DNA from: a virus
DNA length: 37,248 nucleotides
IMG/VR virus record: IMGVR_UViG_3300023174_000366
Span: 1-37,248 of that record
Strand: one strand, 5' to 3'
This document shows positions 14,493 through 20,087 of this stretch, one piece after another. Every line of letters starts with the position of its first letter. The stretch's first letter is position 1. Made by a program: the position numbers and the translations under genes. A model generated the notes under the pieces. The model did not search any database. It was not told where the DNA came from and saw nothing but the letters and a program-made list of their open reading frames with translations.

Positions 14493-14521
14493 TTGACATA
14501 GGGTAGACAACCGCATATAGT
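14493..14521 (+). promoter_or_regulatory. Early rightward sigma-70-type promoter
   Basis: TTGACA (14493-14498, consensus -35) is separated by exactly 17 bases from TATAGT (14516-14521, five of six matches to the -10 consensus). Transcription would start near 14,528, about 44 bases before the first early gene. It should be recognised by the host housekeeping sigma factor immediately after infection. Confidence 0.8.
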
Positions 14522-14571: not shown

Positions 14572-14730
14572 ATGATGACAGACAAAGACTACATCAAGAC
14601 CCGCGAATTATTTCGCCAAATGGGAGAACGCGAATTACAAAGTGGGAATCTTGAGAAGGTAGATTATTACACAGGAATTATCCGCGGTCTAGATTTAGCC
14701 TTCGAAGATGGAACCGCAAAGAAGAATTAA
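14572..14730 (+). CDS. First early gene, small unknown protein
   Basis: 52 residues. Two ATG codons stand in tandem at 14572, with AGAGGAG eight bases upstream. The protein is charged and helical (DYIKTRELFRQMGERELQ, then YYTGIIRGLDLAFEDG). I recognise no family. As the first gene behind the strong early promoter it should be among the earliest and most abundant phage proteins, and such genes often encode host-takeover factors. That role is only inferred. Confidence 0.65.
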   Translation: MMTDKDYIKTRELFRQMGERELQSGNLEKVDYYTGIIRGLDLAFEDGTAKKN

Positions 14731-14741
14731 GCAAGGCCAGC

Positions 14742-14808
14742 CTCGCCCGCCTAGGGCGTGCCGATTCGATTCGGAGCGGGGCACGAGTGGAGGGAACTAC
14801 CCCGCCAC
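14742..14808 (+). ncRNA. Structured RNA element, copy 1
   Basis: This lies in the 95-base spacer after the first early gene. An outer stem pairs CTCGCCCG (14742-14749) with CGGG (14777-14780) and, past a GCA bulge, CGAG (14784-14787). It encloses an inner hairpin CCGA/TCGG (14761-14764 with 14771-14774). A second hairpin follows, with GTGG/CCAC (14787-14790 with 14805-14808) and GGG/CCC around the loop AACTA. The same architecture with different paired bases recurs at 15417-15488. The AAGGAGG ribosome site of the next gene lies immediately downstream, so it may be a regulatory leader or a processed small RNA. Confidence 0.55.
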
Positions 14809-14825
14809 CAAACAAGGAGGATGTA

Positions 14826-14990
14826 ATGACACGCAAGGATTACGTAATGATCGCCGATGTTATCGCAACATCGTGGCACCATAGTGCAGACAGTAAGCGC
14901 ACAATAGCGCAAAATATGGCAGAGGCGTTAGGGGCAGATAACCCTAGATTCGATCGTGAACGCTTTCTAGTCGCTTGTGGGGTGAACTAA
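14826..14990 (+). CDS. Small early protein, common actinophage type
   Basis: 54 residues, starting at the ATG at 14826 because AAGGAGG lies five bases upstream. The frame is open further upstream only through the RNA element. The pattern TRKDYVMIADVIATSW at the N-terminus and NPRFDRERFLVACG at the C-terminus is one I have seen in many small actinophage proteins of unknown function. It is coupled to the next gene by TAATG. The function is unknown. Confidence 0.7.
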   Translation: MTRKDYVMIADVIATSWHHSADSKRTIAQNMAEALGADNPRFDRERFLVACGVN

Positions 14991-15241
14991 TGAGAACACT
15001 ACGCGAACTAGCAAAAGAGGCAGGAATTGACGAGAAATATTTTAACCGCGATTTCCTAATGTTAGACCAAAGATACGCGATTATGCAGGATGATAAGGGG
15101 CTACACCTAACCGACATAATGTCGTGGGCTAGTTTCTCCCCTCGTACTATCGGGCGAAAGTCTAACGCGACGGCTAAGGGCTTACAATTTCAACTAGGGC
15201 AGTACAAGGTATGGATCAAGCAACTAGAAGGGGTGAAGTAA
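14990..15241 (+). CDS. Small early protein, possible DNA-binding
   Basis: 83 residues, with its start overlapping the previous stop (TAATG). An N-terminal segment RTLRELAKEAGIDEKYF looks like the first helices of a helix-turn-helix. The middle is LTDIMSWASFSPRTIGRKSN, and the end is a Gln/Lys helix. It has no recognised catalytic motif. It may be a small regulator, but the evidence is only the helix pattern. It is coupled to the next gene by TAATG. Confidence 0.6.
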   Translation: MRTLRELAKEAGIDEKYFNRDFLMLDQRYAIMQDDKGLHLTDIMSWASFSPRTIGRKSNATAKGLQFQLGQYKVWIKQLEGVK

Positions 15242-15408
15242 TGAGCCACAAGCACGAACCATACGGGCGTGAGATAGTGCTAGTTCGTAGAGAAGATGAA
15301 GATTACACTATGGTAAGCGCCTCCTGTCAGTGTGGCGTGACATTGATTCGAGAGACCACACCAAAGGGCACGCGCCCAAACTGGCAAGATTGGAGGGTTA
15401 CGGCTTAA
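15241..15408 (+). CDS. Small early protein with CxC motif
   Basis: 55 residues, starting in the TAATG overlap at 15241. It begins MSHKHEPYGREIVLV and contains SASCQCGVTLI, a pair of closely spaced cysteines followed by a Trp-containing end (RPNWQDWRV). With two cysteines and N-terminal histidines it could bind one metal, but no standard zinc ribbon is complete. The function is unknown. Confidence 0.6.
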   Translation: MSHKHEPYGREIVLVRREDEDYTMVSASCQCGVTLIRETTPKGTRPNWQDWRVTA

Positions 15409-15416
15409 GCAACATC

Positions 15417-15488
15417 GCCCCCGCGCTACGGGCTACGGATTCATAATCCGACGGGGGCACAAGGTAAGGGGCAACACCGCCCCGCCTT
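15417..15488 (+). ncRNA. Structured RNA element, copy 2
   Basis: This lies in the 100-base spacer after the third small gene of this row. An outer stem GCCCCCG/CGGGGGC (15417-15423 with 15452-15458) encloses an inner hairpin CGGATT/AATCCG (15436-15441 with 15445-15450). A second hairpin pairs AAGG with CCTT and GGGGC with GCCCC (15461-15488), with the loop AACACC. Order, linker (CTACGGGCTA versus CCTAGGGCGTG in copy 1), GGGGCAC junction and CCCCGCC end match copy 1 while paired bases differ. The inner loop TTCATAA resembles a tRNA-Met anticodon loop, but no complete tRNA can be folded. Confidence 0.55.
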
Positions 15489-15508
15489 ATGCCTAGGAAG
15501 GGCAGAAA

Positions 15509-15913
15509 ATGACGACAGCAACAGAAGAAAAAACCCTCCCCGATTTGGTGAGTGAGTTAGGTATAACCCTTACAGCACAGCGCATAGATACCCCCGCGAA
15601 TGCGGGAGAGTGGCAACAAAAGGCGAATGCTTACGGCGTGACCTTGCGTTATGAGGGGCGGAAGATGTCTTTTGTTTACTATCAAGGCACAGGGATCAAG
15701 CGAGACCCTAACTGTGCCGATGTTGTTCACTGTTTAAGCAGTGACCTTAACATCCTCAACAGTTGCGAAACTTATGAGTGTTTTGTGGGTTGTTTTGGAT
15801 TGGATATTTATAGCCACAAGACATACGCACACCTTAAAAAGCAAGGTGCCCGATATGAAAAACTGATCGGTAACAGCGACGTACTCTCTCAACTATTAGA
15901 AATGGAATACTAG
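15509..15913 (+). CDS. Unknown early protein (134 residues)
   Basis: It starts at the ATG at 15509, seven bases after AGGAAGG. The protein has an N-terminal acidic stretch, a central segment VTLRYEGRKMSFVYYQGTGI and then LSSDLNILNSCETYECFVGCFGLD with three cysteines, followed by a charged C-terminus. I do not recognise the family, though a beta-strand-rich core is suggested. A ten-codon frame (15916-15948) lies between it and the next gene and couples by TAATG. It may only carry ribosomes forward. Confidence 0.65.
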   Translation: MTTATEEKTLPDLVSELGITLTAQRIDTPANAGEWQQKANAYGVTLRYEGRKMSFVYYQGTGIKRDPNCADVVHCLSSDLNILNSCETYECFVGCFGLDIYSHKTYAHLKKQGARYEKLIGNSDVLSQLLEMEY

Positions 15914-18345: not shown

Positions 18346-18519
18346 CTATCCGCCTGTGGAATAGAAGCCTTTACCCTTAAATGTAACAGAAGGAGAAGAC
18401 CACACACGACTCATAGTTGTGTGGCAATCAAAGCACATAGGGTCACTAACCTCAGCGTGAATAGAACGCTCAACTGTTAGTTCACTGTTGCACTTGTCGC
18501 ACTTGTAATCGTAGTTCAT
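18346..18519 (-). CDS. FmdB-like zinc-ribbon protein
   Basis: 57 residues. The ATG at 18517-18519 overlaps the sigma gene's stop (ATGA). The sequence follows the FmdB regulatory-protein pattern: YDYKCDKCNSE with CxxC, then CFDCHTTMSRVWSSP with the second CxxC, and the family's ending VTFKGKGFYSTGG. FmdB-type ribbons bind one zinc and are suspected regulators, often adjacent to translation or transcription genes. Here it is the last gene of the replication operon, immediately before the terminator. Confidence 0.85.
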   Translation of the reverse strand: MNYDYKCDKCNSELTVERSIHAEVSDPMCFDCHTTMSRVWSSPSVTFKGKGFYSTGG

Positions 18520-19163
18520 TGGTAAGGCGACTCCCCTCCCATAAAGTTAAGTATCTTACGCAAAGCATTAGAACATCTGCGATCAGCAGTAGAAATAGCA
18601 CACTCTGTTGCCTCGCTTAACTGTTGTAATGTGTAGTTCTCGTGGTATCTAAGGCGCAAGATATTCTTCTCATCTTCTTCCAGTAGTTCATAAGACTTCT
18701 TGATGTCAATAAGTGTGGCTAATAGGTTGCCACCTTCTGCGGGGGCAGCGGGTTTACGTGGTGTGCCATCATTGACTAGGTTCTGTGCTTGTTCGATAGC
18801 AGTATCATTGACCACGCTTGCGATAACGTATGGTAACAACTGCGCAATAGTAATAACATCATAGAAGGACTCATCATTGGTCTGGTATCCAGACCTAGTA
18901 GCCTTCTCTTTACGGGCATAGCGTTCAACGCCACGCCTCATCTGGTATGCGATACGCTTTTGATTGATAAGACGTTGGGTGTCATCCTCTTCATCAAGTA
19001 ACTCATTGAAGTAGGACACACGTGTCATCAACCAAGCGTATGCTTCTTGCGTTAAGTCAGCACGATCTACATACTTACGATAACGACGATGAACAATAGT
19101 TACCACGCTAGGTACAAGATCATTAAGTATTGGATGTGGGTCAGTCACTAGGCCAATTTCCAT
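18516..19163 (-). CDS. Phage RNA polymerase sigma-like factor
   Basis: 215 residues. Residues about 30-50 (YVDRADLTQEAYAWLMTRV) match the core-binding part of sigma region 2, DLTQEA being characteristic. Residues about 160-207 (LEEDEKNILRLRYHENYTL, then QLSEATECAISTADRRC) form a region 4 helix-turn-helix that would read -35 elements. Between them lies a longer, less conserved linker. The organisation is that of small (ECF-like) sigma factors, so it may redirect host polymerase to phage promoters, plausibly those of the late operon. It overlaps the MazG/DUF1599-like gene by 23 bases. The ribosome site is weak, and a downstream GTG is a possible alternative start. Confidence 0.75.
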   Translation of the reverse strand: MEIGLVTDPHPILNDLVPSVVTIVHRRYRKYVDRADLTQEAYAWLMTRVSYFNELLDEEDDTQRLINQKRIAYQMRRGVERYARKEKATRSGYQTNDESFYDVITIAQLLPYVIASVVNDTAIEQAQNLVNDGTPRKPAAPAEGGNLLATLIDIKKSYELLEEDEKNILRLRYHENYTLQQLSEATECAISTADRRCSNALRKILNFMGGESPYQ

Positions 19164-19446
19164 CTAATACCATCAGCGCAATAGCACTGTAGTTAAGTAG
19201 ATCAATAAAGGAATCACGCAACGACTCGTTCTCAGGTGTAGCACCGCTATCTATCAGGTGATTGATGCGTGCTGTCTTATCCCACATACGTACACGCAGT
19301 CCATTAAGCGGACCGCCTGGTGCGCCAGCGATATTCTTTGGACCGTAGTCCTTGTGCTTTTGGAGCAACAGGTTACCTGCCCCATCTAATACTTCCCACA
19401 TATCAGCAACAAACTTTACGTGCTTGAGGTCTACGTCTTCATCCAT
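19141..19446 (-). CDS. MazG/DUF1599-like nucleotide-associated protein
   Basis: 101 residues. The start at 19446 has GGAGG and a TGATG overlap with the primase stop. The helical pattern LLQKHKDYGPKNI, RVRMWDKTARINHLI and ESLRDSFIDLLNYSAIAL is that of the DUF1599 / all-alpha NTP-pyrophosphatase-like group common in phages. Conserved acidic residues (ESLRDSFIDLL) would hold magnesium. It may act on nucleotides or modified nucleotides during replication, or on alarmone levels. The substrate cannot be read from sequence. Confidence 0.7.
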   Translation of the reverse strand: MDEDVDLKHVKFVADMWEVLDGAGNLLLQKHKDYGPKNIAGAPGGPLNGLRVRMWDKTARINHLIDSGATPENESLRDSFIDLLNYSAIALMVLDGNWPSD

Positions 19447-20087
19447 CACACACCTCCAAATAATTTCAACGCCTCATCCTTACCGTGTGTAAGGTAGAAG
19501 TCATTAATGTCCATTGATGGAGGCAACGATACTATACGTGAGTTCATTACCTCTTGTGACACACGACGGGAGAACTCTGCTCCTGGGTTGGTGCCATCAT
19601 CCTTGATGTCGTTATCACCTACGATATAAACTGTGTCGTAACCAGTAAACAACTTAACAAAGTGCGGCTTCCAAGCCTGTACTCCTGGCACACCAACAGC
19701 AGGTATACCAATCAAACCTGATACAACTACTGCGTCCAACTCACCTTCACATACAACAATCCTATGTGAATCAATAGTTACATCAGCAACATTAAACAGG
19801 TGACCCTTCTGTCCTGTGGGTGCACCATACTTAGGCTTGCCATCATCTAGCCTACGAAACTTAACACCAACACACATACCAAGTGCAGTCAGGTATGGAA
19901 TAGATAACCAACCAGTGTGATTCTCGTGCCCATTGATAGGGTCAGTGACTAGACCTAATGAATACTGTAGTGCAATCTCCTCAGATATCCCACGTCCTTC
20001 GAGATATGCCAGAGCCTTTTCGTCCAGGCTTTTGCTGTAACGTGTGACCGCTTCCAGCAACGATTTCGATTGCTCGTTTGAGTGCAT
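19446..20087 (-). CDS. Primase TOPRIM subunit/half
   Basis: 213 residues. After an N-terminal helix region (KALAYLEGRGISEEIALQYS, typical of DnaG between zinc and catalytic domains) comes a TOPRIM domain with CEGELDA (Glu114) and VGDNDIKDDG (Asp158, Asp160), the metal-binding residues of primases and topoisomerases. It overlaps the zinc-finger ORF by 107 bases in the +1 frame. A GGAG seven bases before its ATG permits separate translation. Together the halves make one bacterial-type primase for lagging-strand or origin priming. The split could be natural, a programmed +1 shift or an assembly indel. Confidence 0.85.
   Translation of the reverse strand: MHSNEQSKSLLEAVTRYSKSLDEKALAYLEGRGISEEIALQYSLGLVTDPINGHENHTGWLSIPYLTALGMCVGVKFRRLDDGKPKYGAPTGQKGHLFNVADVTIDSHRIVVCEGELDAVVVSGLIGIPAVGVPGVQAWKPHFVKLFTGYDTVYIVGDNDIKDDGTNPGAEFSRRVSQEVMNSRIVSLPPSMDINDFYLTHGKDEALKLFGGV

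Follow-up and report, generated by a model that had tools for sequence, protein, structure and literature searches.

The early operon of the virus record analysed here (37,248 bases; this whole stretch of DNA is called the window) consists of small genes running rightward from a strong promoter, TTGACA-17-TATAGT at 14493–14521 on the plus strand, which agrees with 11 of 12 consensus positions. Two long spacers lie within this operon. The terminase of the virus shares 46% identity with the terminases of E7 and F5, two isolated phages of Planktophila, so that its host is probably a freshwater actinobacterium. A phage sigma factor and a DNA primase are encoded opposite the early operon (18516–19163 and 19446–20087, both on the minus strand); the same arrangement of the sigma factor is found in E7 and F5.

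A composite RNA in both long spacers

The first early gene comprises 52 codons at 14572–14730 on the plus strand as read from the sequence, with its stop codon TAA at 14728–14730. Beyond the first spacer follow three plus-strand genes (14826–14990, 14990–15241 and 15241–15408, from sequence and ORF list), which are linked via TAATG overlaps at junctions free of the element described below. The Shine-Dalgarno sequence AAGGAGG and the in-frame ATG (14826–14828) of the first of them occupy 14814–14828 (+). After the second spacer the ribosome site is predicted by folding to lie in a small hairpin, TGCC-TAGGAA-GGGCA, followed by the ATG at 15509 (15490–15511, +). A GCC/GGC hairpin (GCCTAGGAAGGGC) holding the ribosome site in its loop is seen at 15490–15503 of the window and in many relatives, e.g. 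at 847–860 of locus L002. No promoter-like sites were found on the plus strand inside either spacer, and no intrinsic terminator (hairpin followed by a T run) on the plus strand between 14300 and 16300.

Both spacers contain a common composite RNA, at 14740–14808 and 15417–15488, in which a three-way junction is followed by an invariant AC, a second hairpin and the ribosome site. Within the junction, an outer stem of 7 bp encloses two hairpins, one short and D-like, the other resembling a T-arm. The core of copy 1 (14740–14784, +) was delimited by folding with correct ends and by a match to covariance model R2. Its outer stem GCCUCGC/GCGGGGC pairs 14740–14746 with 14776–14782 including one G-U pair, a register supported by the relative L019 with its perfect stem GCCCCGC/GCGGGGC. 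The D-like hairpin is located at 14748–14751/14755–14758, the T-like hairpin at 14761–14764/14771–14774 with the loop TTCGAT, and the analogues of A73 and C74 at 14783–14784. Folding places the second hairpin, GTGG-A-GGG..CCC-G-CCAC, at 14787–14808 (+), a position at which a hairpin is characteristic of the class. For copy 2 the core lies at 15417–15460 (+), with an outer stem GCCCCCG/CGGGGGC (15417–15423 with 15452–15458), a D-like hairpin at 15425–15433, a T-like hairpin at 15436–15450 whose loop is TTCATAA in tRNA register, and A73 and C74 analogues at 15459–15460. It matches covariance model R1 with 69.3 bits, but is itself one of the four sequences from which R1 was built. Its second hairpin, AAGG..GGGGCAACACCGCCCC..CCTT, is predicted at 15461–15488 (+) by folding and as a class feature.

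An initial annotation of this DNA had noticed the two spacers and their shared two-hairpin layout after TAAGCAA, as reading of the sequence confirms, but placed the stems in a wrong register. What it took for a linker CTAxGGGCxT folds into a small hairpin in its own right, its GGGGCAC junction combines the 3' side of the outer stem with the discriminator-like A and C, and the likeness to tRNA was missed. As a whole spacer, copy 2 has a strong folding energy (z −2.98) and copy 1 an unremarkable one (z −0.67). With correct ends both copies fold into the same kind of three-way junction and hairpin, at z −3.62 for copy 2 and −1.81 for copy 1. Since the whole-spacer energy of copy 1 is unremarkable, this copy is established by comparison and not by energy alone.

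Covariation and tRNA-like geometry in freshwater phages

BLAST of the spacers against loci fetched through terminase similarity yielded 12 relatives and copies in phage E7; DNA similarity to the window spacer was detected in phage records of E7 and F5 only. E7 carries three copies at successive gaps with the outer stems GCCCCCC/GGGGGGC, GCCCCCG/CGGGGGC and GCCCCGC/GCGGGGC, and in one of them a T-arm GTAGG-TTCAAGA-CCTAC is directly stacked on the 7-bp stem. A wider search by two IMG/VR pattern scans and the two covariance models R1 and R2 gave 213 matches in freshwater actinophage contigs, E7 and F5 among them; these comprise 102 distinct cores and, taken with their flanks, 168 distinct copies. 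Homologues in related actinophages thus retain the layout, as the initial annotation had supposed. Per whole contig one to four copies are present, on one strand and within one stretch of roughly 0.3–2.5 kb. They sit between codirectional genes, typically 7–8 nt past the stop codon and about 25–55 nt before the next start. An ORF stop upstream combined with a start and ribosome site downstream was found for 143 of the 168 copies; at random sites a stop upstream and a start downstream, each taken alone, occur in 41% and 27%, respectively.

Among 68 distinct relatives standard pairs occupy 96.3% of the pair cells versus 77.4% after shuffling. Cells changed on both sides numbered 161 compared to 32.5 ± 4.5 in shuffles (0 of 500 reaching the observed value) and at most 22 with a slid partner, all of these being counts inflated by phylogenetic dependence. 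They bear out the earlier claim of a selected structured RNA with compensatory changes that is present twice in the window. In a separate ranking by mutual information each of the top eight column pairs was a predicted base pair. Matches from a single-sequence nhmmer test showed a change in only three cells of the outer stem, too few to inform on pairing, although each of them kept its pair. The first three outer pairs (GCC/GGC) are near-invariant in searches that were biased toward GCC...GGC stems. The invariance of GCC...GGCAC is partly due to the search patterns and seeds; it was mostly kept in BLAST-found copies and in a scan without the AC constraint. The second hairpin starts 0–3 nt after C74 in 169 of 171 copies; its sequences are unrelated to one another, and its mean z is −2.8. 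A distant relative at L003:3450–3535 has a GTCCCCTG/CAGGGGAC stem and a hairpin GCGG-AAAGA-CCGC before the start codon, possibly as a diverged member.

The core shares with tRNA a 7-bp acceptor, a T-like arm, a discriminator A and a distance of 16 nt between C56 and C72, whereas the anticodon arm and CCA are absent. The T-like loop C corresponding to position 56 is invariant in 102 of 102 cores and position 57 is a purine in 98 of 98. In this window-type T-loop position 58 is variable, A not being universal. From the loop C to the last acceptor base we counted 16 nt in 85 of the 102 cores and 15 nt in the other 17. The D-like hairpin is placed where a D-arm would be, and acceptor and T-arm are separated by 10–18 nt that contain no anticodon arm. 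The acceptor stem P1 is 99.1% paired and followed by an unpaired discriminator. As N-1 and N73 form a standard pair in none of the 168 distinct copies, the end of the acceptor is precisely defined. N73 is almost invariably A (or G) and N74 almost invariably C, N75 is C in only one of 168, and position −1 is A or C and never U in the freshwater set. ARAGORN called no tRNA on the elements, and the Rfam tRNA model (RF00005, cmscan) left them unmatched and reported real tRNAs alone. Taken together, each copy is almost certainly a selected intercistronic tRNA-like element without an anticodon arm.

Occurrence in isolated actinophages

Related elements occur in isolated phages of other actinobacterial hosts. 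A canonical version with a TTCGA T-arm is present, unannotated, in Gordonia phage Morgana, in Mycobacterium phages Fowlmouth, Rockstar and Sheen and in Streptomyces phage Dagobah, and an identical copy is shared by Mycobacterium phages Phantastic, Rockstar and Isca. Similar sequences were found in Sheen, Dagobah, SWU2 and cluster H phages, where annotation is mostly absent. A chance model predicts 0.05–0.1 matches per shuffled region of 20–28 kb, against observed counts of 7 and 3. In Fowlmouth, Morgana, Sheen and Rockstar the elements occupy annotated gaps: nine such gaps in Morgana, and in Rockstar the 80-nt gap between gp76 and gp75. Fowlmouth has seven model matches within one 7-kb stretch, and MakoManhole has three elements. 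Most 80–120 nt gaps of Fowlmouth contain a tRNA-like core with a hairpin immediately behind it and then a ribosome site, GGATGG.

The Gordonia/Mycobacterium type combines a 6-bp acceptor with a 6-bp T-stem. A canonical TTCRANN loop in the T-arm is typical of the Gordonia, Mycobacterium and Streptomyces phage type, and the soil-phage elements have a canonical TTCGA T-arm and a D-loop GG. The mode of post-stop spacing in the canonical type is 7–8 nt, equal to that of the freshwater set. In the set collected with model R3 (48 distinct sequences) 98.9% of the cells pair, with 138 double changes versus 41.9 in shuffled sets. The second hairpin is near-universal in the freshwater set and clear in Morgana and Fowlmouth, but absent in many others with short gaps.

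Two elements overlap annotated coding regions, at L406:2866–2915 (Fowlmouth gp47) and L401:17311–17359 (Morgana gp150), and the start codons or ORFs assigned there are probably misannotated. At L395:120–204 on the minus strand two canonical elements follow each other directly head to tail. In the Fowlmouth gap L406:4960–5159 a longer tRNA-like sequence, which has an insert between the D-like part and the T-arm, precedes two hairpins and perhaps represents a stage between tRNA and the minimal form. Several candidates were dismissed as members. L180 is a real tRNA-Ala, and L282:941–1027 of Streptomyces phage Sebastisaurus is a real, unannotated tRNA between gp38 and gp39 (Rfam tRNA, 54 bits). 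Matches from a scan of genome contigs were mostly due to chance in GC-rich genomes, L206 alone looking real. A contig of Streptomyces sp. ISL-36 contains a tRNA-Arg-like sequence (GCCCCCGTAGCTCAGGGGATAGAGC...) without an anticodon arm at L182:794–842.

Possible function and relation to known systems

In precursor tRNAs RNase P reads the acceptor/T stack of about 12 bp, the elbow C, G1-C72 and R73-C74 on the 3' side, and the fold of the element has kept these features. Host RNase P may recognise the 12-bp acceptor/T-arm stack and cut the polycistronic early mRNA just 5' of G1. The upstream message would then terminate a few nt past its stop codon, and the downstream message would begin with a base-paired 5' end, made of the tRNA-like fold and the second hairpin and followed by the ribosome site, which should resist 5'-end-dependent decay by RNase E or J. 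In this way neither terminators nor additional promoters would be needed to divide the early transcript into mRNAs of independent stability. A U at position −1 is preferred in the substrates of bacterial RNase P but is absent in the freshwater set, and since position 75 avoids C the contact of RCCA with RNase P RNA would be incomplete. On account of these two features, cleavage by host tRNA-processing enzymes, preferably RNase P, seems to us an evenly balanced proposition. RNase Z as the sole nuclease was initially favoured by the avoidance of C75, but C74 is the strongest RNase Z antideterminant (PMC3161902), so that the invariant C74 makes RNase Z alone less likely. In M. tuberculosis RNase Z is present and 32 of 45 tRNA genes lack CCA (PMC10673834).

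Other explanations were weighed against such processing. The element could be an uncut stabiliser or insulator whose fold and hairpin block exonucleases or unlink the translation of neighbouring genes. Two stable helices directly before the ribosome site, the absence of the element between TAATG-overlapped genes and the interchangeable sequences of the second hairpin would fit, yet the kept tRNA geometry, i.e. the 12-bp stack and the loop C as well as, in soil phages, the TTCGA T-arm and the GG of the D-loop, is left unexplained, and we regard this reading as rather unlikely. The RNA of about 45 nt could also itself be the product of cuts at both ends by RNase P together with RNase Z or some other nuclease, for instance as a decoy that attracts host proteins which bind or cleave tRNA. 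That the fold lacks the anticodon arm, the target of anticodon nucleases, that genomes carry several copies and that conserved loops are combined with variable stems suited to protein recognition speaks for this idea. It is nonetheless unlikely, as the exact intergenic placement and the obligate second hairpin and ribosome site in freshwater phages indicate a role in cis and C74 disfavours RNase Z (PMC3161902). The processed small RNA of the initial annotation is possible as a by-product. Binding of a phage protein that co-regulates the early genes, with the element as translational or antitermination operator, would agree with the nearby ribosome site and with one to four same-strand copies in one promoter-proximal stretch per freshwater phage; no candidate protein was found, the element is present in very different phage families and its tRNA geometry would again be unaccounted for, so we judge an operator to be quite unlikely.

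A metabolite-sensing cis riboswitch, as proposed initially, would be a structured leader upstream of ribosome sites, which the element is. The genes downstream, however, are small, varied and of unknown kind, and within a single operon the copies turn up at many gaps, so that nothing points to a ligand sensor; with neither an alternative fold nor a terminator seen and no match to an Rfam riboswitch, this proposal is very improbable. Of the further roles suggested there, nothing points to a packaging RNA, and the free variation of stem sequences among copies of the same genome makes an sRNA that targets the host by base pairing unlikely. Remnants of tRNA genes, or pieces of attP that integration left behind, might be suspected from the tRNA-Arg-like fragment without anticodon arm on Streptomyces contig L182 and from the occurrence of tRNA 3' ends in real attP sites. 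We consider them next to negligible, and rejected an attP or tRNA remnant, given that both acceptor strands are present in many copies per genome, the stems are under compensatory selection and the position is always intercistronic. A mobile repeat was ruled out by copies that are alike in structure rather than in sequence. Overall, the best explanation, at about even odds, is a t-element at which host RNase P would cleave so that the message downstream starts with a structured 5' end.

Small intergenic gaps of about 80–100 nt are found in thousands of actinophage genomes, and in several phages many of them hold one recognisable RNA that tRNA finders and Rfam leave unreported. There is about an even chance that these minimal anticodon-less tRNA mimics, often with a 3' hairpin, form an unrecognised and widespread class of phage RNA that acts as punctuation: in phages infecting several actinobacterial hosts, the host tRNA-processing machinery would cut early polycistronic mRNA at them into messages that are stable independently of one another. 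If the processing model is true, phage mRNAs make up a large class of substrates for bacterial RNase P, and phages can define mRNA ends without terminators. Recognition of the element would improve the annotation of start sites and add a new family of structured RNAs.

A description of such elements in phages was not encountered in the open-access literature searched. That no named class fits, as had been stated initially, agrees with Rfam 15, where no family scored at gathering level in the window or at those elements of relatives that were examined, nor at permissive thresholds in the window. Weak similarities were to salivarius-1 (23.7 of 50 bits), mascRNA (26.5 of 42.5 bits) and the plastid ycf2 5'UTR (antisense only). 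Salivarius-1 (RF03030; crystal structure 9G4Q, PMC12776560) shares the 7-bp GCC...GGC outer stem, the small inner hairpin and the two trailing nt, and likewise has a hairpin (6 bp, loop of 5 nt) that stacks on the outer stem, but its loop UUGAG lacks the invariant C of the element. The three-way-junction layout of salivarius-1 is that of L084:3735–3784. A common origin is possible; membership was rejected on the unsupportive score, one E7 copy reaching 23.7 bits where gathering is 50, and no RF03030 match was obtained in six loci at E ≤ 0.5. In cluster K phages, ESAS consist of 17-bp inverted repeats with a 4–13 bp spacer and accompany the 13-bp GGGATAGGAGCCC (SAS; PMC3203893). They too are repeated upstream of non-structural gene starts in actinophages, and some copies of our element likewise put the ribosome site in a GCC/GGC hairpin; the window hairpin GCCTAGGAAGGGC recalls the SAS GGGATAGGAGCCC, yet the sequence differs. 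Neither a three-way junction nor a T-arm is described for ESAS/SAS, and a 17-bp inverted repeat with GGGATAGGAGCCC before the start codon is not what the element shows, its sequence being different (PMC3203893). The repeated intergenic regions of CaiB (PMC9302106) also differ in sequence.

Closer in architecture are mascRNA and menRNA (RF01684), small RNAs that likewise fold like a tRNA and possess an acceptor, a GG in the D-loop and a T-arm. The Phantastic/Rockstar copy scored 26.5 bits (E 0.4) against RF01684, under the family threshold of 42.5, and in contrast to these RNAs the element has no anticodon-like arm, is phage-borne and lies between cistrons. The t-elements, known from plant mitochondria and, in Haloferax, from a position ahead of the 5S rRNA, resemble tRNA in structure and are cleaved by RNase P and tRNase Z (PMC4326828, PMC8003010). 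Those of plant mitochondria and Haloferax volcanii likewise place a tRNA-like fold without tRNA function in a longer transcript between its units, and here such a fold is found between genes of a polycistronic transcript (143 of 168 copies between an ORF stop and a start). By comparison, the present element belongs to bacterial dsDNA phages, occurs in many copies per operon and is combined with a further hairpin and with a ribosome site, its cleavage being putative; it may thus represent a t-element in a new setting, the phage operon.
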